Source: Candidatus Gastranaerophilales bacterium (GTDB taxonomy: Bacteria; Cyanobacteriota; Vampirovibrionia; Gastranaerophilales; Gastranaerophilaceae). From it: 64,000 nt of DNA. How positions within the stretch are numbered: position 1 is the first letter of the stretch; each line of letters begins with the position of its first letter. Below are positions 29,101-46,662 of this stretch, in pieces. The notes below the pieces were generated by a model. That model saw only the letters and a program-made list of their open reading frames with translations. It did no database searches and was not told where the DNA came from. The translations under genes and the position numbers were made by a program. The stretch is taken from the NCBI GenBank assembly GCA_944322855.1, contig CALUQG010000003.1, positions 62,001 through 126,000 of the forward strand, given 5' to 3'.

Positions 29101-30704
29101 CTGTAGCCGGCGGCGATGTCAATATTACTTCTGATTTCTCCATAAATTTTGAAGAATTATCCGCTCAGGATGCTTTAGTCTCGACTGTTAACGGTGCAAT
29201 CAATGCTGATGAAGTTAATACTGAAAATCTTTATCTGCTGGCGCAAGGCGCAAACGGCTCAATTAATATTCAAAATCTAAACAATACTCAAAATCTGACT
29301 TCTGAGTCTACGCTGGATACGGTAATAAACAGCAATGCGGCTTTAAACATTGATTCAATGCTCAGTCATAAAGGATCAGTGAATATTAATTCGGAAGGTA
29401 ATACATATATCAATGAAATAGCTGCTGCTAATGATATTACTGTTAGTGTGGAGGATGAAAAACTTACAATAAATAATCTCGGACGTGTACAAAGAGACAC
29501 TTCTGTTGTACCAAAAACAGTTAACCTAACCGTAAAAGATGCCAAAAGACCTGTTTCCGGAGACAATTACAGACCGGGTATGTCTTATGAAGAAATTAAC
29601 CAAGTTGCTCCAAATAGCAAACTGGATATCTATAATGCCTATGTTCAAGACAAGGTTACTTTAAAAGCTGATACTATCACCGCTCAGGTTTATGATATCT
29701 CTGACGGTGCTCAAAAAGGAGATATTCGTGTAGATCAAAACGGTAATCAGGCTACAGGCTTCCATAATGCCAACAAAAATGGAGAACTCCTCGAGTTTGA
29801 TATTCAGGGGGCAAATTATAGACAGGAAAATGCCGGCTCTGATCCGCATAATCCGTATTACACTCCTGATGCAGGCGACAAACATGCATTAAATGTTCAT
29901 CTGACAATAGGTGATTCTGTTGATGATGCTCTGCTTGGTGCAAATTTCAAAAAATTGTATTCTGACTATGCGTTTATTGATACAGTAGTTTCTGATGAGT
30001 CTTTGTTTTCAAATATTACCCTTGAAAGCGGAATAATTGGTGAAAAAGCTATTTTCAGAAATAACAAGTTCAGAGTAGATGTGGATAATACCTCTATCTC
30101 TCAAGATTATCCGATTAATATTCATTATGATGACGAACCGGATAAAATTATGAATAATAAAACATCTTTCAATCTGAAAATGTTTGATACAATTGAAATA
30201 GATGTTAAACCTGAACCACCTTCACCTACTCCTGTAATACCTGTGGATCCTGACTATTTTGAAAAGAATGATCCGAATAAAATTATCAAAGTACCGAATT
30301 TGAATATTTTAACTCAGGAACCGGATACCAAAGCTGATGAAAATAATAAAATAACAGACGATACAAAAGCTGTCCAGGTAAACAATATCAGCTGGGTTGT
30401 AAGAAATGATAAAAAAGATATAATAGGTGCTTCTGAACAAATACATGATCCTATAGTTAAGCAGCTTATAGGAATTTCTCAAAAAGGAATTCTTGTTGTT
30501 GCTGATACAAACCCTGATACAGGTCTTAAATTAAATGATATTGTTCATATTCATATGAAAAAAGGTGATGCTTCATTTAATATTGACGGAAAAGTATCTG
30601 ATATAAATAAAAATATGGTAGAAATAGGCTTTGTCAATATAGACAAACTCACAAAGAACATACTGATGTTCTGGTGTATGGAAGCAAAAGAAGAAAGTCT
30701 GTAA
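17169..30704 (+). CDS. Giant filamentous-haemagglutinin-like TpsA exoprotein
   Basis: A 4511-residue exoprotein predicted to cross the outer membrane through the divergent TpsB and form a long beta-helical fibre at the cell surface (adhesion, biofilm or contact; family knowledge). A long signal peptide (1-~39, ending SSSYA) is followed by a TPS secretion domain (~45-260, with GGDVMFVSPEGMLVGQSG). About 3800 residues of Asn/Ser/Thr/Gly-rich beta-helix repeats then form two zones: long modules (to ~27.0 kb) and ~30-residue modules (27.9-28.8 kb). A non-repetitive region (~4100-4350), a Pro linker (PEPPSPTPVIPVDP) and a C-terminal ~120-residue PilZ-like domain close the protein. I found one Cys only, near the end (MFWCMEA). 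No toxin domain was recognised. Confidence 0.92.
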   Translation: MKKIGKKKFNTSYLKLFKQSLALSFSLAVFGVGASSSYATTITPDANFSTNVSTSGNTTSISGGIEAGSSTNILHFYDFNLSQGDIANFIMGFGVNKYVGLVDKQIVINGILNSFKNGTIGGDVMFVSPEGMLVGQSGILNVGSLQLVTPNQTSYDSVIAQGRRVSLSSINRLKSDSDTSSTEIYGKIFSSGAINLEDANKITLGMESDIVSGFNANGFAKTRTGDLSGIVNDEGIVDAQYMSGNSGNIKIVSKSIAAEDTFSRESLIQSTGDVTINTPSTSATQISLTSKVEAGGDVTIGNFNETSPTESTTTVNLYNTVNSKGNISVNGDTAYIGSDADLNASSPGGTIETNTRLRLTLNSDMTADSGIKINSIANFEQGANSSIKNLSTGNININSVNLNQNEGAVITNEGQGDIIIDSPGIVSLQKIDAQNGSIDISTDNLSLNNEISSTGDIDLTASSIEQTSDDFTALNSGNNITINTTSGNIGSASQSINLSAAGTVSLDATTAPEGSAAYIKGQGENDLNLAQGTNLVSLDATSENGIKISGNISANRDVNLTASTGITQDSGTTVSSRVGDVNLTNTTSGDITTGNLTSRNESVNVTNEAADGSVTIGGVINASNGGVNISADNSITQSVPTPSINAGQDVNLTATKGDVGSDEQRIVVTTDGAVNVNAGQAANIEGQDTDIDLSKIHAGTDYNLAAKGEGSIILGEGPFHNEHGGIELETDKVLNITDDITAVGDITLISGNGITQSDGTRIESGLGDAQSGNIEITNTGEGGITITSATSNKGGITISNSDTATGDVSVGGIIANGGDISVTNSAESGSVLINNTISSDSNIEITSNKDITQSADIQGVAIDAQNNVSLTAAGTVGTQDNAIILNAGNVVNGAGVDIYLESPDEDLTLGAIAAQNNLNLKTTGSSPKDITLTDAISGVNINIDATGSIYQETEDAAEKTITAGNSLNLTAQQGSIGDSSGDTLKTIGFSLGENGTLSANAQNGSVAINGIETDIDTASVNAGNNIDIITTTSGNITVSNEQNVTGHINLDSAENIALNKAISASEDITVNAKGDLTQSADLTGTALTSQKDITITAANAGSEEKAVIVDAQGVVNVGNEENHAGNLYLEDNTGDFTIGQMFADENLSLKAQGNIIQADDSVVGITSSGTVTVESDTGSIGSENSSLKLNIAGDESSFNVVKSENVYVESLDSDLNTGNINAQNTVDIKTTGSGGVNLNGVITANDVTIAAVDSIIQNPELESIVIDAQGNLVLSSQQGNIGATGENGSSINFSSSALSANAQEGSVYLNGIETTINTNDIIARQDIDLTTTGSGDINVEDAITAEGHITLNAADELNLNGALTANEYIDIAANGGNIVLNSALSAGTDIGVTASGSITQADTFNDTVLNAGKDINLSAGADIGSEGKSILVSAQGVVNAEAGAADVPVPGSVYIQSPQQSLTLGKITASNNVNLAAAGSNSDVILTDKVTGGNVSIKADNNILQNLASEETDRSIETSGNLNLEAVNGNIGETDNAIDFSSQGSLSASAANGSVVLNGIDTDINTSSITAQKDIDLSTQNTGKITVSDNITTADGYIRLNSAESLELNKNLSAGRYVELSANGGVIQDSTTSITSGTNSSSSADDSYVSVSNAQGGNITLENIVSKGDVTVNNAALEEGSASGNITLGSITASDGAITVNNEIGNISHSGNGMLSSSGNIKFDAAGDVGSLQNSMLLASQGTVEANGNNVFLESSGQDLKIAGINSSKEAANGTVNLKTTGSGDIHFEGLVKGGNISVDSAQSITQSVPLPKAIEASSDLTLKANGGSIGSADNALRFSSAGNLEAQASEAVVLNGIDTDIITSAISAGTDIDLTTTIDQDDTKGNIIVNNTLNAERGYVTLDSAKGLNINNDISALYDVTLNAQNGDINLNSQITPAGALIMEANGNITQTGGKLLSTGDMYITSNGGNITLTDISSDGAGIDITANEVTDPEGGTVVSGDITLGTLSAREDINITNNATGKDVTLNGNIDGTDGNSAGKLTIASKGDTTVNGSVYADGVDIDSENNIEINNNINANSGSVDFVTHDGDIIVNGEIEGAGITLNSALNIEVNKSIADSSGTVLLTTQNGDIDIAADVYGSNTAKIIANGNITQTGGTIEADGSGDSVNVISNGGNITLNGVDAYGYLTITANEISLDDGTVKSGDITLGGTISSGEETTITNKGAGRDVIINGSIVANGLDYSPYGLQITSKGDIVQNSSDASIKSDYNIILDAQGNIGSDGQYVKIDTPADKASVVEANGQNVYLQGNKLDIAGINKDSAEVSGVVDIYAPEEVNISGLIKGGDVSIYGYHGISQSETLDLAVDAGNLSLSSGGNIGSASNALDIKVAEDGNVEAQSVNDIYLNSPQGNLSTGTITSTNGTVDINSSSSLNMNGLISGSNVNLTAVNDITQNKDIDKSIQVQNALNITSTNGSIGQAATDTEPANAIDFSAGSLSASAQNGSVVLNGVDTSIETNDVVAGGSIDISTTGAGSSITVTEALNSGGYVNLDSAAGLVLNGDITAVDSVSLGAQTDILLNHIITAGTDINVDAAGNITQDTASSNVVLNAGNNIALNAGLDIGQQNKAIALNADGNVSAAGQNIYLTSPNKNFTIASVTSTNNGNVNLSTTGSGNIHFDGLVKGGNININSAGGITQNTSLDKSIEASEDLILTANDGDIGEAQNGNLPANAIDFSAGSVEAHADRGSVVLNGVDSDINTGDITALNNIDLTTTNSGQITVASELSTETGYINLDSAEGLVLNENVTSKNSYVSLGSQNGDVILNAIVTAAQDINIDTNGDIIQQTTDTALNAGQDINIISAQNAGSSSNSLLVNAGNEVNANGQNLYLEDNTGDFVLGEINAQNYAQLTAEGNIKQSDTSQTSVTSGGNVSLISKNGNIGLSADEAVKTNVAGNVNAQAEKGSVYFNSDGNFNAGNITALNTAQINSADNINLNGLIKANETNITAQNNIIQSTENRSIESTGGNINLVSKQGNIGTPNGNAIGFSLAGSGVVNADASANGSVVLKGIDSDINTSTIKAKNDIDLTTTGLGNITVSDALNAGGYIKLNSSNALTLDKNLTAAENIDLIAGNGDITISSILDAGTDINLDASGSVSQTLNDTVLNAQDNINISAGQNIGSETNSILLNAGGTVLADGNNIYLTSPDADLTTGTITAQGIADINTTGSGSITADGSISADSANIQSAEDINVNQNITVQNGLNLNAQSGISQSGESTISSQNGDLNITANNGNLNLSGTVSNQNGAVSVVNESTGNAELNINRLSAGSNFNIRHEGNGMLNVNGTLTNNGNSSVASNNTGANAGLSLKGAINNNRGTLNITSQGQKGMQISGAVNNDILSGTGSSHSDITIHNQNGALSITSSKIDNGQANGSQNSISITNDGSGGLSINSDITNYGNFSVTNNSGEMNIDGSYDAQFGSENTFTNASDSDFVVNSEITNRGNELVLNNTGAGSLVIGENALLTVYSVLDNGNTYTGTLSLKNSGTGGNIQINGKIAGLESSPIGHIIIENTATGNDSGIAFGEGASIDAQNNSVSVTNNGLAGITAADNVAISSSDEVLIQNTSSSDIVFGNNSNISGNNVIISSAGNNSGVSFGNNAVISSDNDLNISSHGGNGIEFGSGAEIGSNSLSLVNSGNTGGISFNDNAVLTVQNGIAIENTGAEGISFEDNASLSASNININNLNTSNSGVRFGNDVSLVSQGGLTVTNSGANGISFGERAGISSALDALISNSGAQGIIFGNSSVIKSQGKLDLINTGGNSIVFGNNSNFSSGSDMTVHNDGENGLIVDDGTVLASDTSLNIQNTGAADVTVNGTLKGQNISVENENSNLNIAHNNADGNIIANNEVTITLDKGNVINTSSNPENTGNKGISAGGNVKIIASEGSIGLLDSTLNNIIQDGFVLDRNNSVHINSGGDVTAVAGGDVNITSDFSINFEELSAQDALVSTVNGAINADEVNTENLYLLAQGANGSINIQNLNNTQNLTSESTLDTVINSNAALNIDSMLSHKGSVNINSEGNTYINEIAAANDITVSVEDEKLTINNLGRVQRDTSVVPKTVNLTVKDAKRPVSGDNYRPGMSYEEINQVAPNSKLDIYNAYVQDKVTLKADTITAQVYDISDGAQKGDIRVDQNGNQATGFHNANKNGELLEFDIQGANYRQENAGSDPHNPYYTPDAGDKHALNVHLTIGDSVDDALLGANFKKLYSDYAFIDTVVSDESLFSNITLESGIIGEKAIFRNNKFRVDVDNTSISQDYPINIHYDDEPDKIMNNKTSFNLKMFDTIEIDVKPEPPSPTPVIPVDPDYFEKNDPNKIIKVPNLNILTQEPDTKADENNKITDDTKAVQVNNISWVVRNDKKDIIGASEQIHDPIVKQLIGISQKGILVVADTNPDTGLKLNDIVHIHMKKGDASFNIDGKVSDINKNMVEIGFVNIDKLTKNILMFWCMEAKEESL
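19840..27000 (+). repeat. Long degenerate modules in the TpsA shaft
   Basis: Modules of roughly 240-310 residues recur in the same internal order: a YLxSP-type strand, TTGSG, GG(N/D)I, ITQ, IG, AIDFS, then GSVVLNG(I/V)D(T/S)DINT, DIDLTTT, LDSAEGL and NAGxDI. The GSVVLNG-type anchor lies near 20180, 21080, 21820, 22720, 24680, 25410 and 26350. Spacing is about 730-940 bases, with one gap of about 1950. Some DNA blocks are almost identical, for example around 25408 and 26352. Confidence 0.75.
27895..28790 (+). repeat. ~30-residue FGNN-type repeats in TpsA
   Basis: About ten tandem units of 28-31 residues share the pattern NSGxxGIxFGxNAxISSxxx (examples DIVFGNNSNIS, GVSFGNNAVIS, GISFEDNASLS, GISFGERAGIS, SIVFGNNSNFS). 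They differ clearly from the longer modules upstream and probably form a second, regular beta-helix segment near the distal or anchoring end. Confidence 0.75.
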
Positions 30705-33186: not shown

Positions 33187-34284
33187 TTAAAATTTAGATT
33201 TAGCAAGTAAAATCAAATATTTTATTATTGAAGCAGGTATTCCAAAAAACATCTGCTCTAGTCTTGTATGTAACGGAAGTGATTTATCAAAAGACTTGTA
33301 AAAATGTTTGTATATTTTTAAATATTGATATGAAAGCTTTTCATTTTCAAAAAGTTGTTTGTCTGATGTAATTATATAGTCGTTATCACAATATTTTTTG
33401 TATTCGGATTCATATCTGTAAAAATTATACAAGTCCATATACTGATCACCTGTCATGATTTCATTTTTGCTGTAAGGGTATTTGTTTAAGTATATCCCCG
33501 AGTGTTTAAACTCCAGAATAACAAAGTTGTTTACAAGACATTGTCTTGCCTTTTCACATAGTTCATCATTAAAATCAGCAGAATCTTGCATATAAATGTC
33601 TTTGAAATTTCTGGAAAAACATGAATATCCAAAATACTGCTCAGGCGCAAATTTTATTTTTACTTTACCGTAAGGGTTTGGTTTGTTTTTGTTTTCTTCA
33701 AATGAAAAATATGTTGAAAAATCCGGCTCTTTAACCGGCTCTGTCTCAAGAAAATATTTGTCAATATCTTCTTTCAAACCAAAAAACCACCAGTCCGAGA
33801 TGTGAAACGGTATAAGAATTTTTTTGTCAATAGCACTGCAATAAATATAAAATCTGGTAAATAGTGAGCAGGTAAGAATTTTGTGTTTGAAAAGTACATA
33901 ATTTTCAGAATGTTTTTGAAACCTGTCAAAGCTATTCAAAAATCTGTCATCAGCCAGTATCATGTCGCTTCTTAGTTTCATAGCATACTTTCTGGAAGCT
34001 TTTTTTAGCCCTTCCTGTGTGCTTAAAAGTTGCCTATTTAGATTGTTGTATAATTTTTTGCCTGCATTCTCTCGCAATAGTGCATTTCCGGGATCTTTAT
34101 TTTCAACTAAAATATCGTAAAGCCCATCAAACGATGAAATATCAGAACCTTCCCAGGTCGAGAGAATAATCTCAGCCTCCGGCAGATGTCGTCTGACGCT
34201 TTTTAGACACTTCAGAGTCTCTGTTTCGCTGACGGGCCCCTGAACAATAACTGATATTTCGTTTGAGTTTATTTTATTTCCCAT
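33187..34284 (-). CDS. WavE-family polysaccharide synthesis protein
   Basis: A 365-residue protein matching the WavE lipopolysaccharide-synthesis family, glycosyltransferase-like proteins first named from Vibrio cholerae LPS core. The N-terminal signature is clear: EISVIVQGPVSETETLKCLKS, RHLPEAEIILSTWEGSD, then ENKDPG and a KLRSDMIL segment that probably holds the metal/nucleotide-sugar Asp. FHISDWWFFG is another family-type motif. There is a short hydrophobic C-terminal segment (IIKYLILLAKS). It is the last gene of the leftward glycan operon, 22 bases after the acyltransferase gene. The sugar it transfers is unknown. Confidence 0.8.
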   Translation of the reverse strand: MGNKINSNEISVIVQGPVSETETLKCLKSVRRHLPEAEIILSTWEGSDISSFDGLYDILVENKDPGNALLRENAGKKLYNNLNRQLLSTQEGLKKASRKYAMKLRSDMILADDRFLNSFDRFQKHSENYVLFKHKILTCSLFTRFYIYCSAIDKKILIPFHISDWWFFGLKEDIDKYFLETEPVKEPDFSTYFSFEENKNKPNPYGKVKIKFAPEQYFGYSCFSRNFKDIYMQDSADFNDELCEKARQCLVNNFVILEFKHSGIYLNKYPYSKNEIMTGDQYMDLYNFYRYESEYKKYCDNDYIITSDKQLFENEKLSYQYLKIYKHFYKSFDKSLPLHTRLEQMFFGIPASIIKYLILLAKSKF

Positions 34285-34306
34285 AACAAATTTATACCTA
34301 ATTTTT

Positions 34307-35446
34307 TTATAAATATCTTTCCTTTAAAATTTTAGTAACTGGTTTTTCAATAATGTAATAGACTATAATCCCAAATAAAACAGCAATGAGTATAGGCAAT
34401 CCAAAATACATAATTTCTATTAATGGATGCTTAATAGGTAGAGTTTTTACCAAATTCCATATCTCTTTGGTAAAATAATATTTTTGAGATATATCAATCC
34501 AAAGACTATGAGTACAGAATATAGCAAAAGAGTATTTACCTAATGTAACGGCCCAGTTTTGTGAAAACAATTTTGATAAATAGCCGGCATTGAGAAGCAA
34601 TAGCAAAAATAAGAAAATAAAAAGAAGTATTAAATCACCTTCAACAAGTCTATCCATGTCAGATAGAAAAAGTCCGAACATTAGGTAAGCAAATATGCCT
34701 ATTTCAGCAAGACTAATAAAAATTTTTTTCCACAGCGAAGTTGATATTACTTCTTTCCATTTTATAAAATTCTCTTTGAAATTTATATAAAAACAAGCCA
34801 GTGCACAGCCTATTCCTATGCCGTATATTGCTCTTATTATTCCAATACTGCCAAAAATTTGAATATTAAAACTATGTATATGCATACATAGAGGAATTAG
34901 TATTATAAGAAGCAAATAAAAATTTTTAAGACCATAGTTTTTTATAATATAGCGATAAAAAACTGAGACATATATTAAACAGGAGACAAACCAGAGCGGA
35001 TGCAAATTCCCTAAACCACTATGTTCTGTAATATGATTTGAAATATTTAATCCGTTTAAGAATAATAGTGTAAATATATCTTCCATAAAATATAAATGAA
35101 CTATTTTGAATAGTGAACAAATTGCAAACAATAATATTGTAAAAATCATTACAGGCCATAATCTAATAATTTTGGCTTTAAAGAAATCTAACCAGCTTTG
35201 TTTAGGTTTATAAGTATATATAAAGAAAAATCCTGAAATAATAAAAAACAACTCAACACTCATCCATAGATGTAAAGAATTGTTATATATAAATTTAAAG
35301 TTATTATAAACTAAAAAATTTTTTGTTGATATGCCTAATATATGACATGCAACAATACTGCAGGCGAATATAAATCTAAAAACTTCAATGTTATTTATAT
35401 ATTCTTTTTTGTCGGTGGTATTAATATATTCTTCAATTTTATCCAT
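34307..35446 (-). CDS. Acyltransferase 3 family membrane protein
   Basis: A 379-residue integral membrane acyltransferase of the OafA/acyltransferase-3 type. It probably adds acetyl or another acyl group to surface polysaccharide from the cytoplasmic donor side. About ten hydrophobic segments run the whole length. The N-terminal RFIFACSIVACHI carries the family His, and MSVELFFIISGFFFIYTY is the conserved second segment. It is separated from the previous operon gene by 47 bases and from the next by 22. Together with the hexapeptide acetyltransferase upstream it gives the locus two independent acyl modifications. Confidence 0.88.
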   Translation of the reverse strand: MDKIEEYINTTDKKEYINNIEVFRFIFACSIVACHILGISTKNFLVYNNFKFIYNNSLHLWMSVELFFIISGFFFIYTYKPKQSWLDFFKAKIIRLWPVMIFTILLFAICSLFKIVHLYFMEDIFTLLFLNGLNISNHITEHSGLGNLHPLWFVSCLIYVSVFYRYIIKNYGLKNFYLLLIILIPLCMHIHSFNIQIFGSIGIIRAIYGIGIGCALACFYINFKENFIKWKEVISTSLWKKIFISLAEIGIFAYLMFGLFLSDMDRLVEGDLILLFIFLFLLLLLNAGYLSKLFSQNWAVTLGKYSFAIFCTHSLWIDISQKYYFTKEIWNLVKTLPIKHPLIEIMYFGLPILIAVLFGIIVYYIIEKPVTKILKERYL

Positions 35447-35493
35447 TATAAATTTTCTCCGTATGTGTTTATATGAAGCAAGAGAAATATCTT

Positions 35494-36687
35494 CTAACTT
35501 TGATAATATTTTTTATATATTTTTTTATTTTTGTTTGAGAGTATAATCCATTTCAAAAAATATTTTATTACTGCGAATGGCTCTATGAATAAATAAAAAG
35601 AAAATTTATATGGATGTATCAACTGAGTAAAATGTTTAAGCAATTTGTAATAGTATTTATTTTTGTTACATAAAATATCAATTTTATTGCTTATACCAAA
35701 AGCATGTTCTTGTGATGCGGCAAGAATATTTGGCTGAACAATTTCAATAAATCTTTTTTGCAGATTAAAATTTTCAATATCAGATTTTTCACATCTGATT
35801 ATATTCAAACCAGCGGCTTTAAACATATTGGCAAGAGCTTCGATATTATTTTCACTTAGAAGCATTAAGCAGTGTTCAGTTATTCCACTTGTACTTTTGA
35901 ATTTTTTGTAAAAATTATATTTGTAATCCTCTAATAAATTTTCATCCAGATATTTTTTTAGTAATTCATCAATACTAATTTCTTTATAGCCATATTTTTC
36001 TTTATTCATATCCAAGTATGCATAATATAAAACTATTTCAAAAATTCCTGTTTTCCTGTCTATATTTTTCTGGTTAGTATTTTGTTTTTTTAGTTTTTCT
36101 ATGAGACTGTTTAAATCTCCGAGTTCTAAAAACATATTTTTTAGAATTTGTTTGTCGTAATACCACATAAAATGTTCTATATACCATTTCTTTTCACACC
36201 CTGAAAGATATACGATGTTTTCAAGCATTTGATTGAAAAATTCGTCTTTTCTGTTTTCATTTTCTATTTCAGATGTTACAAAGAATGGATTTTTGAAATA
36301 ATCATTGAAAAGCTGTGTCATATTAGTTGGCTTTATCCACATACTTTCGCAATCCAGGACAAGAAATTTTTCAGCATCCGCATGCAGCATTGAATAAAAC
36401 TTTTTTGCTGTCTGGAATGTGAAACGTCCGAACTGTTTTAGATATTCATCAGGTGTAAGTGAAATATTGTTTTCTTTAAACAAGTCTTCAATAAATAAAA
36501 CATGAATATTTAAATCTTCTTTATAGTTTTTTATGATTTTTTCAAATTCACTGTTTTCAGTTTGTGAAATTGTGAAAAAAATTGGAATTTCTTTTTTGTC
36601 TTCAACAAATTTATCAAAACTTTCCAAATACTTTGGAATGAATTGAAAATGGTTTTTGTATGTGGGTGTAATTATTGCATATTTCAT
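35494..36687 (-). CDS. Glycosyltransferase-like protein, glycan operon
   Basis: A 397-residue protein without a confident family name. The N-terminus MKYAIITPTYKNHFQFIPKY and the acidic motif FLVLDCESMWIKPTNM look like a GT-A glycosyltransferase core with a DxD-like site. The phrase FTFQTAKKFYSMLHAD is of a type seen in DUF6492-like proteins. The last ~50 residues are basic with hydrophobic patches, which may hold it at the inner membrane. It overlaps the upstream gene by four bases (ATGA). Its base composition is even more AT-rich than the housekeeping genes, as for its neighbours. Confidence 0.6.
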   Translation of the reverse strand: MKYAIITPTYKNHFQFIPKYLESFDKFVEDKKEIPIFFTISQTENSEFEKIIKNYKEDLNIHVLFIEDLFKENNISLTPDEYLKQFGRFTFQTAKKFYSMLHADAEKFLVLDCESMWIKPTNMTQLFNDYFKNPFFVTSEIENENRKDEFFNQMLENIVYLSGCEKKWYIEHFMWYYDKQILKNMFLELGDLNSLIEKLKKQNTNQKNIDRKTGIFEIVLYYAYLDMNKEKYGYKEISIDELLKKYLDENLLEDYKYNFYKKFKSTSGITEHCLMLLSENNIEALANMFKAAGLNIIRCEKSDIENFNLQKRFIEIVQPNILAASQEHAFGISNKIDILCNKNKYYYKLLKHFTQLIHPYKFSFYLFIEPFAVIKYFLKWIILSNKNKKIYKKYYQS

Positions 36688-37670
36688 TGATTTTTACCTT
36701 TCACTATCAAATATTTTATAAAGTTGAGTGAAATACTAAATAAAGATTTCATACCATTTTTTATATTTTGCAGGTCATTTATTATTTTATTTTTATATTT
36801 GATTTTTTTATTTATTTTTCTATTCGTATTTTCTACAGTAAATTCATTTTCTTTAGATATGAAATTGTTTCTGAGTATTTCATATCTGATATCATTTGTC
36901 TGTATATCTAAATTTTGTTTGTATCCAATGTGGTAATAAAGAACAGTTTCCGGATGACAAACAGGAAGACCTTGTTTTTCGTATTCTTTCAGATTTTCAT
37001 ATAAACAATCCAGACATTTAAGATTTTGGGCTTTTGATATGATTAATTGATCCGAAAATATAATCTTGTGAAATGGAATATATTCCATTTTTTCCACATT
37101 TTTGTAATAGCAGCAATAGTATGCTTCATTTTCTCCTTTCGGGTTAATATTTCCTCCATATGAAGCAATATTTAATTTATTCATATCAAAATTTGATAAA
37201 TTAATTTGCGAATAAAATTGTAGATCAGGTCTTGCTATAATTATGTTGTCGTAAATTATTCCAGTTTCTTGTTCATATTCAATAAGTAATTTTATAGCAC
37301 CTGATATGTTGAAATATAAAGAAAAGAAACGATCTATTGGAAAGATAGGACTATATACCCCACTACTATCGTTTTTGAATTTTTTAGTGTAGTCAGAATA
37401 AGATTGTAATGAGACTTTTTTTAATGCATCTCCATAAATTTTTTTTAAAGTGCATATATCAATAATGTCTCCTTCCAAATCTTGTTTGGCTGCGTTTATT
37501 GCTTTTTGCTTATTAATATTTACTCCTGACTCAATTCTTGAGACACCTGTATTATCATAAGCAAAGACGAAAATATCTGCATTATTAGGTTTAACTATAT
37601 TTTTAAGCAGTGAAGCTGCTGTAATTTCAAATGTTCTTAAAAAACCATATAATAAAACTGCTGTTTTCAT
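36684..37670 (-). CDS. Glycosyltransferase-like protein, glycan operon
   Basis: A 328-residue protein that I cannot place in a named family. MKTAVLLYGFLRTFEITAAS, followed by NADIFVFAYD, and the later YDNIIIARPDLQFYS resemble a class of putative polysaccharide glycosyltransferases with an RPD motif. There is a Cys pair in AYYCCYY. The C-terminal ~70 residues are Lys/Asn-rich and probably not part of the fold. It lies 68 bases after the methyltransferase gene and overlaps the following gene by four bases, so it belongs to the glycan operon. Acceptor and donor are unknown. Confidence 0.55.
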   Translation of the reverse strand: MKTAVLLYGFLRTFEITAASLLKNIVKPNNADIFVFAYDNTGVSRIESGVNINKQKAINAAKQDLEGDIIDICTLKKIYGDALKKVSLQSYSDYTKKFKNDSSGVYSPIFPIDRFFSLYFNISGAIKLLIEYEQETGIIYDNIIIARPDLQFYSQINLSNFDMNKLNIASYGGNINPKGENEAYYCCYYKNVEKMEYIPFHKIIFSDQLIISKAQNLKCLDCLYENLKEYEKQGLPVCHPETVLYYHIGYKQNLDIQTNDIRYEILRNNFISKENEFTVENTNRKINKKIKYKNKIINDLQNIKNGMKSLFSISLNFIKYLIVKGKNQ

Positions 37671-37738
37671 TTTAACTATTATCCATATTACTAAAATAAT
37701 TTGTAGGTCTGTTAATATTTATATTTAATGCTAATTAT

Positions 37739-39475
37739 TTATTCATAAATTTTTTCAGTTGTTTGAAAAACTTCTTGAAGCCCACTTTTTTTCGCAATTC
37801 TGTAATTGGGGTAACAAATAGCTCTGATAAATTTACTTCTGTATTGGCGTCTTTGTTTTTTGAATGGAGGAGGAAATATAATATTGGCAGCCATTTTGCA
37901 AAGGAATTTTGAGCATTTTAGATATAAGCTGTTATTGTATATTTTCCAGCTATTTCCTGAGTACATATTACATTCAAAAGAGCCAAAAACATTGTTATAA
38001 TATTTACACCATGCTAATTTCTTTTGTAGACAAAATTTTTCGGAAAAATAGTCATAATATTGATCTAATTTTTCCTGCATGTCTGTATACATTATTAAAT
38101 AGCAGATGTTTTTATATAAAATAAATTCTTTTTCAATCCCGGCAGGTATTTCGAATTCAAAATCAAAGAAATGATATTTCCCATCAGGCAACCTTAAAGC
38201 ATTTATCGGACAAATATCATAACTTTCAGGTTTTAATAGTCCGGTTTTATAATTAAATTGCCTAAATATTTCAGATATAAATATTTCGAATTCATCAAGA
38301 AGCTTTTTCTCATCATTTTTTATTGAATTAAAGAAATCTATAGCCAGTGTTGCATCTTTTATGTATTCTCTTTTTTTGTCTTTTAGTGTCAGTTTGTAAC
38401 TGCAGCCCTTGCAATTATCCTTAGTCCCTATAATCTTCTTTATAATATAAATTTTACTGTTTTCTTCTTTATAAATAGCACGAACAATCCTACCTGCTTT
38501 AAAGCTGTATATTATACCAAGGATGTGTTTTTTTAGATATTTTTTGTTGTTTTTATAAATATAGCTATTGGGTAATAAATTATATTTTTCAAAAGGATAA
38601 TCGAGAGTTGATTTTGCTTCTATATCAAAATTGGCAGCAAAGTTAAAATTTTTCAAATGCCCTGTTACAAGATCAGGATATTTTGTCAGTAATTCTTTTT
38701 TTAGTATCATTGATTTACCGGGAGTATCAAAGTACAAAAAATCACTCATTAATGATTTATCAACTTCTGCAATAAGTTCATTGTTTTTTATCGAAAAGTT
38801 ATTGCTTGCAAAAATTACAGGTCTATATATTTTTTGATTTACATTGTTAATATATTGATATCTTATTTCATCAAAAAAACTGTAGTCTTTTAACCAATCT
38901 CTATAATTCGAAGGCAAGTACATATTCCAGGCAATATTTTCTCCAGACGTAGCAAGTGAACCAATCAAGATTTTTGTTTTTTGTGATAAAGCTTTCATTA
39001 CCTTTTGTGCATATTTCAATCCGTTTGTGTTATATCCGTAACTTACACCACAAGCTACATGATGTATAACATTAAAAAGAAATACAAAATCAAAACCTTC
39101 ACTATCAATGTTTTCAACGAAATTTAAATCGAAAAATTCTTTTCTAAAATCAATATTAAAACCATTTTCAGAATTCAGATATTGACAAATCTGGACATTT
39201 TTTTCCTCAAGATCTATTCCAACAACATCGCATCCGAGTTCGGCAGCTTTTAAAGAATAATAACCTTGAGCACATCCTATATCCAGGACTTTTACTTTTG
39301 TTTTGCCTGTAATTTTTTTGTATTGATTAATAATATCAGCAATCAGTTCCCCGTTTTTAATTGTATCAATGCCTTCTGTTTTAGAATCAAATTCAGGATG
39401 ATTGTATATATTTTGATACTGACAAGGCAGATTCTCTATGAGTTCTAATATATTTGTTTTATTTTCTGTATTCAT
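37739..39475 (-). CDS. SAM methyltransferase with large C-terminal domain
   Basis: A 578-residue protein. Residues ~60-210 are a class I SAM methyltransferase (motif I VLDIGCAQGYYSLKAAELG, acidic VVGIDLEEKN, and FVFLFNVIHHVACGV). The remaining ~350 residues are a separate part with a Cys-rich bit (GTKDNCKGCSYKLTLKDKK) and YHFFDFEFEIPAG, which resembles the Asp-Phe-Glu metal loop of kinase-like folds. In E. coli WbdD, a methyltransferase joined to a kinase caps O-antigen chains; this protein could have a similar capping role, but that comparison is inference. It starts six bases after the hexapeptide transferase gene. Confidence 0.7.
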   Translation of the reverse strand: MNTENKTNILELIENLPCQYQNIYNHPEFDSKTEGIDTIKNGELIADIINQYKKITGKTKVKVLDIGCAQGYYSLKAAELGCDVVGIDLEEKNVQICQYLNSENGFNIDFRKEFFDLNFVENIDSEGFDFVFLFNVIHHVACGVSYGYNTNGLKYAQKVMKALSQKTKILIGSLATSGENIAWNMYLPSNYRDWLKDYSFFDEIRYQYINNVNQKIYRPVIFASNNFSIKNNELIAEVDKSLMSDFLYFDTPGKSMILKKELLTKYPDLVTGHLKNFNFAANFDIEAKSTLDYPFEKYNLLPNSYIYKNNKKYLKKHILGIIYSFKAGRIVRAIYKEENSKIYIIKKIIGTKDNCKGCSYKLTLKDKKREYIKDATLAIDFFNSIKNDEKKLLDEFEIFISEIFRQFNYKTGLLKPESYDICPINALRLPDGKYHFFDFEFEIPAGIEKEFILYKNICYLIMYTDMQEKLDQYYDYFSEKFCLQKKLAWCKYYNNVFGSFECNMYSGNSWKIYNNSLYLKCSKFLCKMAANIIFPPPFKKQRRQYRSKFIRAICYPNYRIAKKSGLQEVFQTTEKIYE

Positions 39476-39481
39476 GTTTCT

Positions 39482-40249
39482 CTATCCTTTATTTTTTGTA
39501 TAGAATTCTTTTTCCCAGCAAATATCCCTTGCCCAACTCACACCCTGTTTAACAAGCCTGACAGGCATTCCGGCAAATACCCCCCCCGAAATCCGCTCAG
39601 CGATTGTGTTTTGGGCTCTAGTCCAGATTGAACAAGCTCCTATAATCGAATTATTAGGGATAATACTGCCTTTTAATATATTAACACTTGCCCCAATCCA
39701 GCAGTTGTCACCAACTATAATATCTTGAGGTTTGTTTAGAATTTTTTTTGTGATTGTATCATACATGGTATGTGCATCAGTTGGTCTAAAAAATATATCA
39801 TAAGATAACATACAATTATTTCCGATTTTTAAAGTAATATTTGGTGAGTCTACGCAGCGAATCAATATACCTCCAAAAGAGCAGTCATTGCCGATTATTA
39901 TTTTAGAATTGTCACCAGTAAGGAAAAGAGGGTATTTAAACACTAACTGAAATTTTGTTTTTCCACATTCAAAATAACAATTGTTAGCCATGTGTATTTC
40001 AATACCGTTAGGAAAAAATGTAGACTTGTACAATTTTACTGTCGAGTTGTTACCCTTGAAAAAAACTTTTAATCCGGGCATAAAAGTTGAGTCCAGTTCA
40101 TTTCCGTCATCATCAAGGAGAATGAGTTTGTTATTTTCTCCTGAATTTTCCATGATACTTGTTTTTGGGATGTATTTGTCTCTAAATCTGTGTCTGAGCT
40201 TTTTGGAAGGTATAAAACAGCTCAGTAGTTTTATTATTTTCTCGTTCAT
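39482..40249 (-). CDS. Hexapeptide-repeat O-acetyltransferase with a G8 tract
   Basis: A 255-residue left-handed beta-helix acyltransferase of the type that O-acetylates surface polysaccharides. An N-terminal beta region is followed by hexapeptide coils (GNDCSFGGILIRC, IGNNCMLSYDIFFR), the catalytic-type His in PTDAHTMYD, WIGASVNILKGSIIPNNSIIG and the closing GGVFAGMPVRLVKQG. The start codon shares one base with the upstream stop (TAATG). Eight consecutive G (39580-39587 on the complementary strand) encode part of Ser-Gly-Gly-Val at codons ~221-224. Gain or loss of one G would replace the last ~33 residues, including the final coil. Confidence 0.85.
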   Translation of the reverse strand: MNEKIIKLLSCFIPSKKLRHRFRDKYIPKTSIMENSGENNKLILLDDDGNELDSTFMPGLKVFFKGNNSTVKLYKSTFFPNGIEIHMANNCYFECGKTKFQLVFKYPLFLTGDNSKIIIGNDCSFGGILIRCVDSPNITLKIGNNCMLSYDIFFRPTDAHTMYDTITKKILNKPQDIIVGDNCWIGASVNILKGSIIPNNSIIGACSIWTRAQNTIAERISGGVFAGMPVRLVKQGVSWARDICWEKEFYTKNKG

Positions 40250-40626
40250 TATCTTTCCTTTGCTTGTTTTATAACTTCGGATTTATCAATTTTGTTCCAG
40301 CCTGAAAATTTCATCACCCTGTCATCGATTGTGATGTCGGCATTTGGTTTGCCAAAGAAAATTTCATCGTACTGAATGCCGTTTTCTTCCAGCCAGTCCA
40401 GAGTTATTTTCCCGACATTCTTCAGGACTTTACCTACGTTATGCCCCTGTGTCTGCATGTTACGTGCCGTGTTTATAATAATCGTATGTCCGTCTGCTTT
40501 CAGGCTGTCTATAAACTCTTTTGCTCCAGGCATGACTTTTACATCGGCGTATGTTTCATTAGGCTTTTTTATTGTGCAGATTGTGCCGTCTAAGTCAATG
40601 CATATTCTGAGCTTTTTTTCTTCCAT
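40249..40626 (-). CDS. HAD-family capsule biosynthesis phosphatase
   Basis: A 125-residue HAD hydrolase of the EcbF/BcbF capsule-biosynthesis phosphatase type (TIGR01689-like). The HAD nucleophile motif is in ICIDLDGTICTIKKPNETYA, motif II lies in TIIINTARNMQTQGHNVGK, and the later DEIFFGKPNADITIDDRVM gives the Lys and acidic motif. The start at 40626 has AGAGGA directly upstream and overlaps the nucleotidyltransferase-kinase gene by 37 bases. It probably dephosphorylates a sugar phosphate feeding the nucleotidyltransferases of the same operon. Confidence 0.8.
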   Translation of the reverse strand: MEEKKLRICIDLDGTICTIKKPNETYADVKVMPGAKEFIDSLKADGHTIIINTARNMQTQGHNVGKVLKNVGKITLDWLEENGIQYDEIFFGKPNADITIDDRVMKFSGWNKIDKSEVIKQAKER

Positions 40627-42275
40627 TCCTCTTTTCCCTTATTACTGTCTTTTCCTAATTTTACTGTTTCGTTTAGCAATTCAACCGCTTTTAGATAAAA
40701 TACTTTCTGTCTGTCAAAGTTATCTTTGTGAAGCGGTATCATTGACAAAAATAACAATCCCTCTATAAACTTTATTTCATTAATATTAAATCCGTTTTTG
40801 CTTGCATAATTGTCAAAAATCTTTTCCAGTATTGAATAATCAGGGGAAACAATCTTATATTCAAAACCTGTTTGTGTCTCTTTGAGTTTGAACAATCCGT
40901 GTACCACAAAATCATACAACCCGACGACGCTGTGACGTAGTTTTGCGATATCATATCTCGGGTCTCCATAGATGGTTGCATCACTGTTCAGCCTTCCTCT
41001 CGGATCAATCAGTTTGAAAATATAGTTGCTTGAATCAAACAGGATGTTTGAAAAACAATAATCGCCGTGTATTATTGTCTCACATCCGTTTTGACTCAGT
41101 TTCTGTGCAAATTTTTCAATACCCTCTTTTAGAGCGGCAATACCGCAAAACTTTTTGCCGTTTATGTACTCATTTTGTTTGCTTAAAATTTCATTCCAGT
41201 ATAAATTTGAGTTTTTTAACTCCTGCAAGCGTTCTTTTGTTTTATCAAAATATAGCCATTTCAAAGCATTTTTATTTGTTTCGGTTTTGTAGTTTTCAAA
41301 CTTTTTGTGCAGATTGAAAAGTTTTTCTATAATATACTGCCAGTCTTCGATATTGACTTCTCCGGAAAGATAAAGCTCTTGCAATGATGCGTAGCCGTAG
41401 AGCTCTTGAGTCAGCTGAGCAAAGTTTTCATTCTTGCTAAAACTTACAAATCTCGGTGTATGGATTTTTAGTTCCTCAGGCAGATTTTGATACCACAGTG
41501 CTTCGTCTTCAAGCTTCTGGATTTTTGTGCTCTGTTTTGTGAGCAGTCCTGAGTCTGTGTCGACAGAAATTGAATTGAAGCATCGTGCATTGAACAAAAG
41601 ATTCTTCGCTTTAATAAGTCCTGATGTGTGTCCGAGGTCATACCAGTCATTAATCAGTTTTGTTTTTAATTTGTATTTTTCCTGATACATAACAAGCGCT
41701 GTAGAAATCTCTTTTTTCAGCATTAATCTTGCTTTTATGCAGCAGTTGAGCAAATATCTTGTGTCAGAAAATGCATAATATCCGACAAGAGCCTCTTTGT
41801 CTGTCATATTAACATTTTTTTGTTTATCATAAAAAATATTTTTTTTATCTATCAAACACCAGTTTTCTGAAATTGTGACATCTTTTGATGTATAAACAAT
41901 GTCTGTCTCATCATTTATACTTTCCGGCAGAAGTGTATCGCCCAGAATAACCCTTGTCGGAATATTTACATCAGCTTTTTGAAGAGCATATTTTAAAGAA
42001 CTCAATATATTCTTTTTACTGTTTACAAGAACAAGTTTTACTTTGAATGTCTCATTTAAAACATTTTTTGTGTAATCAATGAGCTTTGTGTTATCACTGC
42101 ATACGACAATAATGAATTCATCAATTCCGTATGAATTTTTAAGTATTTCTAACTGGCGGAATATAACAGGTTTGCCTCTCAGCGGTAAAAGTGCAAGCGA
42201 GGAATAGAAACCTACAGGCATGTTTTCATTTTTTGTTTCTCCGCCAAAAAGCAGAATGTTGTTAAATTTTTGCAC
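40590..42275 (-). CDS. Nucleotidyltransferase-like / choline-kinase-like fusion
   Basis: A 561-residue two-part protein. Residues 1-~230 look like a sugar-phosphate or choline-phosphate nucleotidyltransferase with a weakened glycine-rich loop (LLFGGETKNENMPVGF, PLRGKPVIFRQLEIL, RVILGDTLLP). Residues ~290-545 are an aminoglycoside-phosphotransferase/choline-kinase fold with TIIHGDYCFSNILFD at ~398 and KLIDPRGR as the metal-binding segment. Such pairs appear in capsule loci that attach a phosphorylated side group. It overlaps both flanking genes (37 and 14 bases), so it is tightly coupled with the HAD phosphatase and the separate nucleotidyltransferase. Confidence 0.75.
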   Translation of the reverse strand: MQKFNNILLFGGETKNENMPVGFYSSLALLPLRGKPVIFRQLEILKNSYGIDEFIIVVCSDNTKLIDYTKNVLNETFKVKLVLVNSKKNILSSLKYALQKADVNIPTRVILGDTLLPESINDETDIVYTSKDVTISENWCLIDKKNIFYDKQKNVNMTDKEALVGYYAFSDTRYLLNCCIKARLMLKKEISTALVMYQEKYKLKTKLINDWYDLGHTSGLIKAKNLLFNARCFNSISVDTDSGLLTKQSTKIQKLEDEALWYQNLPEELKIHTPRFVSFSKNENFAQLTQELYGYASLQELYLSGEVNIEDWQYIIEKLFNLHKKFENYKTETNKNALKWLYFDKTKERLQELKNSNLYWNEILSKQNEYINGKKFCGIAALKEGIEKFAQKLSQNGCETIIHGDYCFSNILFDSSNYIFKLIDPRGRLNSDATIYGDPRYDIAKLRHSVVGLYDFVVHGLFKLKETQTGFEYKIVSPDYSILEKIFDNYASKNGFNINEIKFIEGLLFLSMIPLHKDNFDRQKVFYLKAVELLNETVKLGKDSNKGKEEWKKKSSEYALT

Positions 42276-43017
42276 AGTCTGCTCCTTTTATATAGCGTTC
42301 AAGCTGTTCAGGTGTACCTACACAATCAAAGTGCTCTATATCAAATATTCCGATTTTGTCAGTGAATTTTTTCAAATGATTGTAAACATTCGACATATAA
42401 AACTCACCTTTTGACAGGTCATTACACACAATAAGATCTATAACCGCATCTTTGAAATCTTTTAGAGTTTTAAAATAATACATTCCGCATATTGCGTGGT
42501 CAGAAATTACTTCTTTTTCTTTTGTTTCCACCAATTTGCCGCTGTCGTCAATTTTTGCATACGAAAAACAAGGGTTGTCTGAGTTAAAAGTTAACAAAGC
42601 GGCTGAAAGGTTTCTTATTCTTACATCGGATATAAAATTTTTAACATCTTTTTTATTAAAAATGTTATCCGAATCAGCAAAAATGATATCAAAATCAGGA
42701 TTTATTGCTCTGTGAGCAGCCAGAGCAGTGACAGCCGCTCCCATTGTCAGTTTGGGAACCGTGACTATTTCTACCGGAAAATGCTTTTTTAATATTTCTA
42801 TTTGAGAAGATTGTTCAGACAAAAATTTTTCTTGTAAAACAAGAATAAAATTTGCATTAAGTTCATTGAATGAGGAAAGTACGTGTTCAATCATCATTTT
42901 TCCGTCAAATTCAATAAATGGCTTTGGAACATCATAACCTGCAACAGCAAATCTGCTGCCGGCACCGGCCATTGGAATAACAATATTGATTGGGTTTTGT
43001 AAATATTCTTTTTCCAT
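42262..43017 (-). CDS. Sugar-phosphate nucleotidyltransferase
   Basis: A 251-residue GT-A-fold nucleotidyltransferase, probably making an NDP-sugar or similar activated group for the glycan operon. The signature loop is NIVIPMAGAGSRF, then PKPFIEFDGKMMIEHVL, with the metal-binding Asp in IIFADSDNIF. The later FDCVGTPEQLERYI is also typical. It starts 18 bases after the recombinase-like gene and overlaps the next gene by 14 bases. The nucleotide and substrate cannot be inferred with confidence. Confidence 0.85.
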   Translation of the reverse strand: MEKEYLQNPINIVIPMAGAGSRFAVAGYDVPKPFIEFDGKMMIEHVLSSFNELNANFILVLQEKFLSEQSSQIEILKKHFPVEIVTVPKLTMGAAVTALAAHRAINPDFDIIFADSDNIFNKKDVKNFISDVRIRNLSAALLTFNSDNPCFSYAKIDDSGKLVETKEKEVISDHAICGMYYFKTLKDFKDAVIDLIVCNDLSKGEFYMSNVYNHLKKFTDKIGIFDIEHFDCVGTPEQLERYIKGADCAKI

Positions 43018-43035: not shown

Positions 43036-43566
43036 TTATAAACACACTCCCTGCTGATATCTCAAATTCATGTTTTCTTTCACATCAATAAATTTTAAAG
43101 TCATGTTTACTGATGTTTGGTTAAAGAGCCATTGAAGATAAGATAAATCTTTGTATTTTTGATAATGATGATATGCAAATGTCTTTCGCCATGATGCTAC
43201 AGTAATATCTTTTGAGAGCCCGAGTTCTTCGCAAATGCTTTTGAAGGAATAAAAGACAAATACTCTGTCCAGTCTGTTGCCTTTAGCGGTTTTGAATAAA
43301 GGCTCAGATGCAGAACGGTTTTCAGTCATTTTTGCAATAAGCTTTTTTGTATCTTCTGTCAAAGGAAAACTTTTTTGGCTGTTAACAACGAGATAATGTT
43401 TGTTGACAACATTTTTTACATCAAGCTGGAGCAGGTCTTTTAAATTTGCACCGGTGTTAATTGCAAGTTCAAACAATAGCAAATCACGTGTCATATTTTT
43501 CTTTTTGTATAATTCTTTTATTTTTTCAATTGTTTGAATGTCTTTTATTGGAGAGCTTACTGTCAC
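43036..43566 (-). CDS. Degenerate tyrosine-recombinase-like protein
   Basis: A 176-residue single-domain relative of phage integrases/FimB-like recombinases, without the N-terminal core-binding domain. The fold signature is clear (LLLFELAINTGANLKDLLQL; ASWRKTFAYHHYQKYKDL; NQTSVNMTLKFIDV), but the active site is mostly gone. The first Arg is Asn/Leu (INTGANLKD for TGLRISD), the box II His is Ala with Arg kept (ASWRK), the third His is Gln (FNQTS), and the nucleophilic Tyr is Phe (LKFIDV). It may bind DNA without cutting. It starts at GTG with AGGGA upstream, heads the glycan operon, and lies 41 bases from a 19-bp inverted repeat. Confidence 0.75.
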   Translation of the reverse strand: MTVSSPIKDIQTIEKIKELYKKKNMTRDLLLFELAINTGANLKDLLQLDVKNVVNKHYLVVNSQKSFPLTEDTKKLIAKMTENRSASEPLFKTAKGNRLDRVFVFYSFKSICEELGLSKDITVASWRKTFAYHHYQKYKDLSYLQWLFNQTSVNMTLKFIDVKENMNLRYQQGVCL

Positions 43567-43606: not shown

Positions 43607-43625
43607 TTTATACAAAAATGTGATG
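43607..43625 (+). repeat. Left 19-bp inverted repeat of a candidate invertible segment
   Basis: TTTATACAAAAATGTGATG. It is an exact reverse complement of 43763-43781, with 137 bases between. It lies just upstream of the recombinase-like gene that heads the glycan operon. Confidence 0.85.
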
Positions 43626-43634
43626 TTGCACTGA

Positions 43635-43658
43635 AAAACCGCATTATTAGCGGCTTTT
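43635..43658. terminator. Terminator-like hairpin inside the candidate invertible segment
   Basis: CCGC (43639-43642) / GCGG (43650-43653) with flanking A4 and T4 gives a short bidirectional terminator-like hairpin. No annotated gene ends here on either strand. Confidence 0.45.
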
Positions 43659-43753
43659 CAAATTCAAATTATTATAAAAATTTTAAACATAACAAAAGTT
43701 AATAATATAAACAATCCGTTTTGTTTATGATAATATTGAGTTTAGGTTATACT

Positions 43754-43799
43754 AAAAAATCTCATCACATTTTTGTATAAAGTTGATGAGATTTTTTTT
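43754..43799 (+). terminator. Strong terminator overlapping the right inverted repeat
   Basis: AAAAAATCTCATC (43754-43766) pairs perfectly with GATGAGATTTTTT (43785-43797), and a T-run follows. The right 19-bp repeat fills most of the loop plus four bases of the left arm. The hairpin lies between divergent genes, so it ends no annotated gene. It could stop an unannotated rightward RNA or attenuate transcription towards adhE. Confidence 0.75.
43763..43781 (-). repeat. Right 19-bp inverted repeat of a candidate invertible segment
   Basis: CATCACATTTTTGTATAAA, an exact reverse complement of 43607-43625. Positions 43606/43782 and 43626/43762 no longer pair, so the repeat is bounded at exactly 19 bp. 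Confidence 0.85.
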
Positions 43800-43843: not shown

Positions 43844-44019
43844 TTGATTTTTTCTCTCTTGATGTCTTGCTAATATAATAAATATATATCTATAAATCTT
43901 ATAGCAGTGTAATTTAAGATGTTTATTATTATTAATAATTGTAAAAATAACACTTGCTTTTTTTTATTTGTTGAGTTATATTAATAGTGAATAATTTCAC
44001 GATAAAGGAGACATTACAC

Positions 44020-46662
44020 ATGGCAACTAAAAAACAAGCCGAAACTGAAAAGCTCGAAAAAGCTTTCAACAAATCAAATGAAGTAAAAACTCATGACGAT
44101 TTGAAATTAATCATTGAAAGAGCTAAAAAAGCTCAAAAAATCTATGCTACTTTTTCTCAAGAACAGGTAGACAAGATATTCAAAGCAGCAGCGACTGCAG
44201 CTGACAAAATGAGAATTCCTCTTGCTAAAATGGCTGTTGAAGAAACAGGCATGGGTGTTATGGAAGATAAAATTATCAAAAACCATTTTGCTGCTGAATA
44301 TATTTATAACAAATACAAAAATATGAAAACAGCCGGTGTTATTTCAGAAGACAAAGCAAACGGTATCAAAAAAGTGGCAGAACCTATCGGTGTTATTGCA
44401 GGTGTTATTCCTACAACAAACCCGACATCAACTGCTATTTTTAAATCATTAATAGCTTTGAAAACTCGTAACGCTCTTGTATTCTCACCACACCCGAGAG
44501 CTAAAAAATGTACAATTGCAGCTGCAAAAGTAGTTTTGGATGCTGCCGTAAAAGCAGGTGCTCCGGACGGACTTATTGCCTGGATTGATGAGCCTTCAGT
44601 TGAATTGTCAGGCGCATTGATGCACCACGAAGATATCGATATGATTCTTGCTACAGGCGGCCCTGGAATGGTTAAAGCAGCTTATTCATCTGGTAAACCT
44701 GCATTGGGTGTAGGCCCCGGCAACACTCCTGCTGTTATTGATGAAACTGCTGATATCAAAATGGCTGTTTCTTCTATTCTTTTATCAAAAACATTTGATA
44801 ACGGTATGATTTGTGCATCCGAACAATCAGTTATTATTGTTAAAGATGTATATGAAGAAGTTAAAAAAGAATTCCTCTTGAGAGGTGCTTATATTCTTAA
44901 CAACAAAGAAAGAGAAAAAGTAGGAGCTCTTGTTATTCAAAACGGCAGAGTAAATCCTGCAATTGTTGGTCAGCCTGCAGCAAAGATTGCTGAAATGGCT
45001 GGTATCACTGTTGAACCTGATACAAAAGTTCTTATCGGTGAAGTTACTGACATTTGTGAAGAAGAACCGTTCGCTCACGAAAAACTTTCTCCGGTACTTG
45101 CTATGTATAAGGCAAAAGATTTTGATGACGCTGTACAAAAAGCCTATGATCTGGTAGACTTTGGTGGTGCAGGTCACACATCTGTTCTTTATACAGACGA
45201 AAGATTTCCTGAAAGAATTGAAGCATTCGGCTTGAAACTTCACACAAGCAGAATTTTAATCAATTCACCTTCTTCACAGGGTGGTATCGGTGATTTGTAC
45301 AACTTCAGACTCAATCCTTCATTGACATTGGGCTGTGGTTCTTGGGGCGGAAACGCTGTAAGCGAAAACGTAGGCCCTCAACATTTGTTAAACATCAAAA
45401 CAGTTGCTGAAAGGAGAGAAAATATGCTCTGGTACAAAGTTCCTGCAAAAATATATTTCAAAAGAGGAGCTTTGGATTTGGCTCTCAGAGAATTGCAGGG
45501 TAAAAAACGTGCATTTATCGTTACAGACAGATTCCTGTTCAATTCCGGTATGACAAATGCTATTACAACTACTCTTGATGATATCGGTGTTGATTATCAA
45601 ATCTTCTTTGATGTTAAACCTGATCCGACATTGTCTACAATCAACGATGCTATGATGATGGTTAAAGCTTATGAACCGGATGTGTTCATTGCTCTTGGCG
45701 GCGGTTCTTCAATGGATGCTGCTAAGATATTGTGGTTGATGTATGAACAGCCTGATACAGTATTCGAAGATATCGCAATGAGATTTATGGATATCAGAAA
45801 GAGAATCTGTATGATACCTGAACTCGGTAAAAAAGCAGAAATGGTTTGTGTTCCTACTACTTCAGGTACAGGTTCAGAAGTTACTCCGTTCGCTATCATC
45901 ACTGATGATCAAACAGGTGTTAAATACGCAATTGCTGATTACGCATTGACTCCGAATGTTGCAATTGTTGACCCGAACCTTGTTGATACAATGCCTAAGG
46001 GCTTGACAGCAGTTTCCGGTTACGATGCAATTACTCACGCAATCGAAGCGTATGTTTCAGCTATGGCTACAAACTTCACAAATTCAAATTCTCTTGAAGC
46101 TTTGAAACTGTTGTTTAGATATTTGAAACGTTCTTATGACAACGGTGCAAAAGATCCTCAGGCTAGAGAAAAAGTTCACTACGCTTCAACAATTGCCGGT
46201 ATGGCTTTTGCTAATGCATTCCTCGGTGTTTGCCACTCTATGGCTCACAAGCTGGGTGCTATGTTCCATGTACCTCACGGTATGGCTAATGCATTGTTAA
46301 TCAATCAGGTTGTTAAGTTCAATGCTACTGACAAACCGGTTAAACAAACTGCATTCCCTCAGTACAAATTCCCGAATGCAAAAGCAAAATACGGTCAAAT
46401 TGCCGATGAACTCGGACTTGGCGGTAAAAATGACGATGAAAAAGTTGAATTGTTGCAGCAGGCATTGATTCAAATGAAGAAAGATCTTGGATTGCCGATG
46501 TCTATTAAAGAATTCGGTATCGATGAGCAAGAATTCCTTTCAAAACTTGATGAAATGGTTGAACTCGCATTCGACGATCAATGTACAGGTGCAAACCCGA
46601 GATATCCGTTGTTTGAGGAAATCAAACAAATGTATCTGGATGCATACTACGGAAGAATATAA
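44020..46662 (+). CDS. adhE: Bifunctional acetaldehyde-CoA / alcohol dehydrogenase
   Basis: This is the fermentative enzyme that reduces acetyl-CoA to acetaldehyde and then to ethanol, regenerating two NAD+. ATG 44020 is chosen for AAAGGAG nine bases upstream, giving 880 residues, a normal length. The N-terminal half is an aldehyde dehydrogenase with catalytic Cys265 ([10 protein letters not shown]). The C-terminal half is an iron-dependent alcohol dehydrogenase ([23 protein letters not shown], metal His in [13 protein letters not shown] and [16 protein letters not shown]). AdhE proteins form long filaments (spirosomes). Codon use is more optimised than in neighbours, suggesting high expression. 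An operator-like site lies 177 bases upstream and a strong terminator follows. Confidence 0.97.

Follow-up and report, generated by a model that had tools for sequence, protein, structure and literature searches.

A probable invertible promoter segment ahead of a glycan operon in Candidatus Gastranaerophilales, led by a catalytically dead recombinase paralogue

The segment at 43607–43781 is probably a real, live invertible promoter. We put the probability at roughly 75% that it is a site-specific invertible promoter segment which controls the leftward glycan operon by the steps proposed in the Discussion. In the window (the whole 64-kb stretch of DNA analysed here), it lies between that operon, whose first gene (43036–43566) encodes a catalytically dead recombinase paralogue, and the rightward gene adhE (Table 1). 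Cassettes of the same layout occur across Candidatus Gastranaerophilales, and the interiors of some homologous cassettes lie in opposite orientations. The species of the window is represented by one genome, in one orientation, and we infer inversion of its own segment from these relatives.

Table 1. Positions and strands of the segment, its predicted elements and its neighbours in the window
Feature	Position	Strand	Remark
Left (operon-side) arm, TTTATACAAAAATGTGATG	43607..43625	+	19 bp, perfect inverted match to right arm
Interior, predicted to flip	43626..43762	.	137 bp; similar to L118, L151 and L099 interiors in reverse only
Right (adhE-side) arm	43763..43781	-	19 bp, perfect inverted match to left arm
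Dyad TCTCATCA-N16-TGATGAGA (43760-43791), then T run	43754..43798	+	Includes right arm
Terminator-like hairpin GCCGC-TAATAAT-GCGGTTTTT	43631..43661	-	GC hairpin between interior and operon in present orientation
Outward extended -10 promoter motif TTTATGATAATAT	43724..43736	+	Motif in 16/46 interiors; predicted by comparison
Short tyrosine-recombinase paralogue, catalytically dead, first operon gene	43036..43566	-	PF00589
Glycan operon	33187..43017	-	Behind first gene 43036..43566
adhE, divergent neighbour	43987..46662	+	Likely start 44020

Results

Inverted repeats bounding a short interior, the arrangement by which invertons are recognised, are present as two perfect 19-bp arms 137 bp apart, just as an earlier sequence-only reading of this DNA had described. 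The segment is the sole exact inverted pair of at least 16 bases at a spacing of 70–450 bp in the window, and second-order Markov copies of the window contained on average 0.075 such 16-mer pairs and, in 40 trials, no 19-mer pair, which bears out the view that a chance match is unlikely. Further copies of the repeat, which that reading had suggested looking for, are lacking, as the whole 2.01-Mb genome holds only the two arms with up to two mismatches allowed. An exact arm search of viral contigs gave 0 matches, and an Rfam search gave no match. The right arm is part of a larger dyad, a candidate recombinase site and/or terminator-like hairpin, and the predicted inversion breakpoint would split the dyad around this arm. 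The outer half-site of the left arm, ATTACATTT, is more degenerate than that of the right arm.

Short tyrosine recombinases of the FimB/FimE type have about 200 aa. In the cassettes of Candidatus Gastranaerophilales, the recurrent order is a short intact tyrosine recombinase, an arm, about 100–250 bp, a second arm, the dead paralogue and a glycan operon. Of the dead genes, 19/28 have an arm pair upstream and 0/29 have one downstream; of the intact genes, 20/44 have one downstream and 0/46 have one upstream. The frequency in random windows taken from these loci is 8/1952, and at 9/28 dead genes no arm pair was detected. The gene just behind the dead paralogue encodes a nucleotidyltransferase, glycosyltransferase, UDP-galactopyranose mutase, sugar transferase or similar protein in most loci examined. 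Arms and a dead gene with no intact recombinase alongside, in the sequenced DNA around the locus, are found in the window and in L085, L091, L097, L098, L100, L101 and L106. L083, which holds the nearest dead relative, offers just 117 bp of upstream sequence, with a different dyad, and is thus not comparable for orientation. A third arm copy seemingly occurs in the cassettes of L042, L074 and L080, with which more than two states would be possible. In L066 (7339–15009, genome G039), prophage-like genes, with names guessed from sequence only, adjoin a cassette with intact and dead recombinases. An intact member of the short recombinase family is also found outside the phylum, in Helicobacter sp. 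13S00401-1 (L132), where it was possibly acquired by horizontal transfer.

For locus pairs with alignable flanks, the interiors were compared in both directions. The flanks of L197 and L198, from two genomes of the family, are colinear (137/147 and 114/150), and their interiors are identical at 117/128 positions with one reversed. In the inner arm halves, a T/A difference travelled with the interior, which points to an exchange in or beside the TATACAAAA core, and this core is also found in the window. The interiors of L098 and L100 are likewise reversed relative to L101 (136/183 identical for L098/L101) between colinear flanks, despite the absence of a local intact recombinase; the pairs L094/L102, L154/L157 and L098/L100 share one orientation. 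Reversed interiors between colinear flanks, here in homologous cassettes, indicate that such segments have inverted; the sequence-only reading had proposed a search of related genomes for the reversed interior. On these comparisons between species, inversion can be taken as demonstrated for the cassette family, rather than for the window's own strain. Between the window interior and those of L118, L151 and L099, similarity is found only when one of the two is reversed (0/1000 shuffles each).

The 46 non-redundant interiors contain the motif TTT[AG]TG[AT]TANTAT, an extended -10 element preceded by a TTAATAA box, 16 times (0.13 expected), an enrichment that is partly circular because the motif was selected after being seen in several loci; a genome-wide count showed no enrichment. 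Nine copies point towards the operon and seven away from it, mostly 31–50 bp before the segment end that they face. The one copy in the 64 kb of the window, at 43724–43736 with its TTAATAA box at 43699–43705, points away from the operon; in L118, L151 and L099 the motif points to the operon in all three. The -10-like hexamers named in the earlier reading are present, but the comparison favours TTTATGATAATAT at 43724–43736. That reading had also expected a flip to remake or break the flanking hairpins, and the junction energies do change with orientation: the operon-side junction RNA has -28.9 kcal/mol now and -13.7 after virtual inversion, and the right-junction hairpin with its T run has -18.2 now and -10.0 afterwards. 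The latter hairpin could stop outward transcription before adhE. Since the motif points away from the operon while a terminator-like hairpin faces it, the assembled orientation is predicted to be OFF, an assignment that the earlier reading could not make. Generic sigma-70 and terminator scans gave no signal above chance, and a crude test of promoter and hairpin agreement across all interiors had 2 in agreement and 3 in disagreement.

The strong terminator-like hairpin formed by the right arm and the second hairpin inside the segment would also be expected of static regulatory DNA, that is, paired operators or bidirectional terminators between divergent genes that were never invertible. We regard this as very improbable, since hairpins do not need identical arms 137 bp apart, and since the cassette layout, the promoter motif and the reversed interiors of the homologous cassettes would be left unexplained.

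The product of 43036–43566 has a predicted fold like the Xer/Cre catalytic domain (pLDDT 90). Its named relatives place the genome, that of an uncultured gut relative of cyanobacteria, with Candidatus Gastranaerophilales. Active tyrosine recombinases have six catalytic residues, and RKHRHY is found at these positions in 49/80 relatives; at the positions of Arg, Lys, His, Arg, His/Trp and Tyr, the window protein has N, a gap, A, R, Q and F. We rejected it as the invertase because the catalytic residues, including the nucleophile (Tyr to Phe), are gone; the gene is the first of the regulated operon, not the flipping enzyme. The sequence-only reading was correct in calling this gene tyrosine-recombinase-like, in keeping with Pfam family and fold, and its invertible regulatory segment finds support in a family of invertible promoter segments before glycan operons with inversion in homologous cassettes, but the flipping agent that it implied does not stand.

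Together with 29 other non-canonical proteins, the window protein forms one clade (100/100) on a long stem. The whole clade is without Lys (at the aligned position) and without the first His, and part of it retains the first Arg, the second His or Tyr. Nei–Gojobori estimates of dN/dS for the dead genes are about 0.03–0.2 where synonymous divergence could be estimated, several pairs being saturated (for example, 0.08/2.38 for L098/L101 and 0.04/1.07 for L097/L099). The lost catalytic residues, the low dN/dS and the single clade suggest that the dead gene appears to be under purifying selection and maintained, but not as a recombinase.

The same data bear on a possible mobile-element remnant, in which the arms would derive from attachment sites or element ends and the recombinase-like gene would be an integrase in decay. 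Such an origin would fit the occurrence of a close dead-gene relative (E <= 1e-40) in this species only within the genus, and the prophage-like genes beside the cassette in G039. However, attachment remnants are flanking direct repeats, not inverted repeats around 137 bp, the gene shows no decay (open frames, one clade, low dN/dS), and orthologous loci of the same layout were found in many species. We give this origin hardly any credence.

As the segment has no intact copy next to it, the invertase of our preferred reading would probably be supplied in trans. Intact short recombinases are encoded in the own genome on contigs C9 and C25, the latter more distant. The arms closest to those of the window are found in L151 (score 25), followed by L118, L089 and L085 (17 each). 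The intact protein on C9 falls into one group with the L151 and L118 recombinases (95/80; 76–78% identity), and since these relatives own similar arms, the C9 orphan is the best candidate for the trans-acting invertase. Outside close pairs, arm similarity is weakly linked to recombinase relatedness (Mantel r 0.68, falling to 0.30 once pairs over 85% identical are removed), and the arms of L089 and L085 tie with those of L118. A cognate recombinase in unassembled DNA is possible, as the genome consists of 33 contigs. Arm-like sites near the C9 and C25 recombinases were not convincing, no arm pair was found beside the C9 gene, and an arm pair is absent from all four loci in viral contigs that encode a relative of this recombinase. 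Near the end of contig C9 (L063, 9287–9448), there are three copies of CTACCAATTTCATCACAA, two in the same direction and one inverted. On contig C25 (L064, 665–4107), the intact short recombinase lies near genes that appear by eye to be HipA-like and HTH-like, and its close relatives recur in many genomes.

A once-invertible cassette could also have become fixed after loss of its local invertase, leaving arms that would now serve the dead paralogue as operators and form hairpins on either side of a promoter that no longer moves. This would agree with a locus without an intact recombinase, the degenerate left outer half-site and the fold kept by the dead paralogue. We nevertheless consider it unlikely: the 19-bp arms are still perfect where drift would erode them, the genome still encodes an intact recombinase of the right subfamily, and reversed interiors occur in cassettes that have no local intact gene (L098/L100 versus L101).

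Discussion

For the live switch that we favour, we propose the following multistep mechanism, in which (i) a short tyrosine recombinase, probably the intact orphan encoded on C9 and acting in trans, would act on both arms (core TATACAAAAA between inverted half-sites); (ii) this action would flip the 137-bp interior; (iii) in the assembled state, the sole outward promoter would fire towards adhE into the right-junction hairpin, and the terminator-like hairpin would face the operon, keeping it OFF; (iv) after inversion, the promoter would face the operon with no strong hairpin between them, turning it ON; (v) in the ON state, the first gene transcribed would be the dead recombinase paralogue; and (vi) its product would probably bind the same kind of DNA site and regulate the switch or the operon.

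Promoter inversion as such has well-known counterparts. The fimS switch of Escherichia coli, served by FimB/FimE, is a 314-bp element (PMC5763102). As in fimS, the promoter lies on the invertible segment and a surface structure is controlled; short tyrosine recombinases are encoded beside fimS, and a recombinase-like gene adjoins the window segment. In contrast to fimS, the window has a glycan operon, an interior of about 137 bp and longer arms, and the recombinase-like gene next to the segment is a dead one that forms part of the regulated operon. A parallel in target is offered by the Bacteroides capsule operons, where promoters invert before glycan operons, and where UpxZ inhibits the antiterminator UpxY (PMC7315117). 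Both systems combine promoter inversion before a glycan operon with regulatory genes at the operon start, and the dead paralogue occupies the position where Bacteroides places UpxY/UpxZ. Where Bacteroides has UpxY, a NusG-like antiterminator, the operon of the window has a recombinase paralogue (PF00589) as its leader gene, and it belongs to a different lineage, Gastranaerophilales. In a defined gut community, invertons are inverted-repeat-bounded segments near surface genes and invertases, and the invertase genes are generally oriented beyond the inverton's regulation (PMC11892184), whereas here a dead family member sits in the regulated position.

MrpR, the master repressor of the Bacillus subtilis prophage SPbeta, is an example of a recombinase fold turned repressor, with recombinase function lost (PMC10516654). 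MrpR is a full-length two-domain protein in which the residues at the Arg and His positions are replaced and Lys and Tyr are kept (PMC10516654). The product of 43036–43566 likewise has a recombinase fold without the recombinase residues, with replacements at Arg and His positions, a likeness of kind that does not imply family identity. It differs in consisting of the catalytic domain only, in the mostly Tyr to Phe exchange, in being tied to an invertible promoter, and in that its DNA binding is predicted. By this analogy, we infer that the dead protein is probably a DNA-binding regulator. As its gene is the first behind the switch, the protein should be made mainly in the ON state. We favour feedback on inversion as its role, with regulation of its own operon or of other glycan loci as alternatives. 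More tentatively, and with rather less confidence than even odds would express, we hypothesise a widespread Gastranaerophilales glycan switch whose invertible promoter first yields a domesticated dead invertase. By sitting on recombination sites or by joining the active enzyme in mixed complexes, this protein would feed back on inversion, either at its own locus or at other glycan loci, and the ON state would thereby bias its own persistence.

Our literature searches found no report of such switches in Gastranaerophilales or Melainabacteria. Relative to known invertible promoters, two things are new: the regulated position is taken by a dead paralogue, and the lineage is one for which no such report was found. 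The segment suggests that gut Melainabacteria, in which genetics has scarcely been developed, vary their surface glycans by phase variation. The cassette layout and motif offer a means to find such switches and to read their state from assemblies. The conserved dead recombinase in a regulated position can be tested as an example of an enzyme that has become a regulator, perhaps one acting on its own reaction.

The operon behind the dead gene encodes a nucleotidyltransferase, an NTP-transferase/APH-like kinase, a HAD-like protein, a hexapeptide acetyltransferase, a methyltransferase, putative glycosyltransferase-type proteins, an acyltransferase and a WavE-like protein. On the other side, the region upstream of adhE is conserved within the genus only from about 43824. 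Two loci of the same genus (L004 and L006) have glycosyltransferase-like genes at the same place, upstream of adhE, which suggests that this position may be a variable glycan site within the genus. Elsewhere in the window, a 4511-aa open reading frame with no Pfam match (17169–30704, + strand) lies divergent from a gene for a ShlB/FhaC-type outer-membrane transporter (14753–17017, - strand; POTRA_2, ShlB, Omp85), and this adjoining transporter suggests that the frame encodes a giant two-partner-secretion exoprotein.
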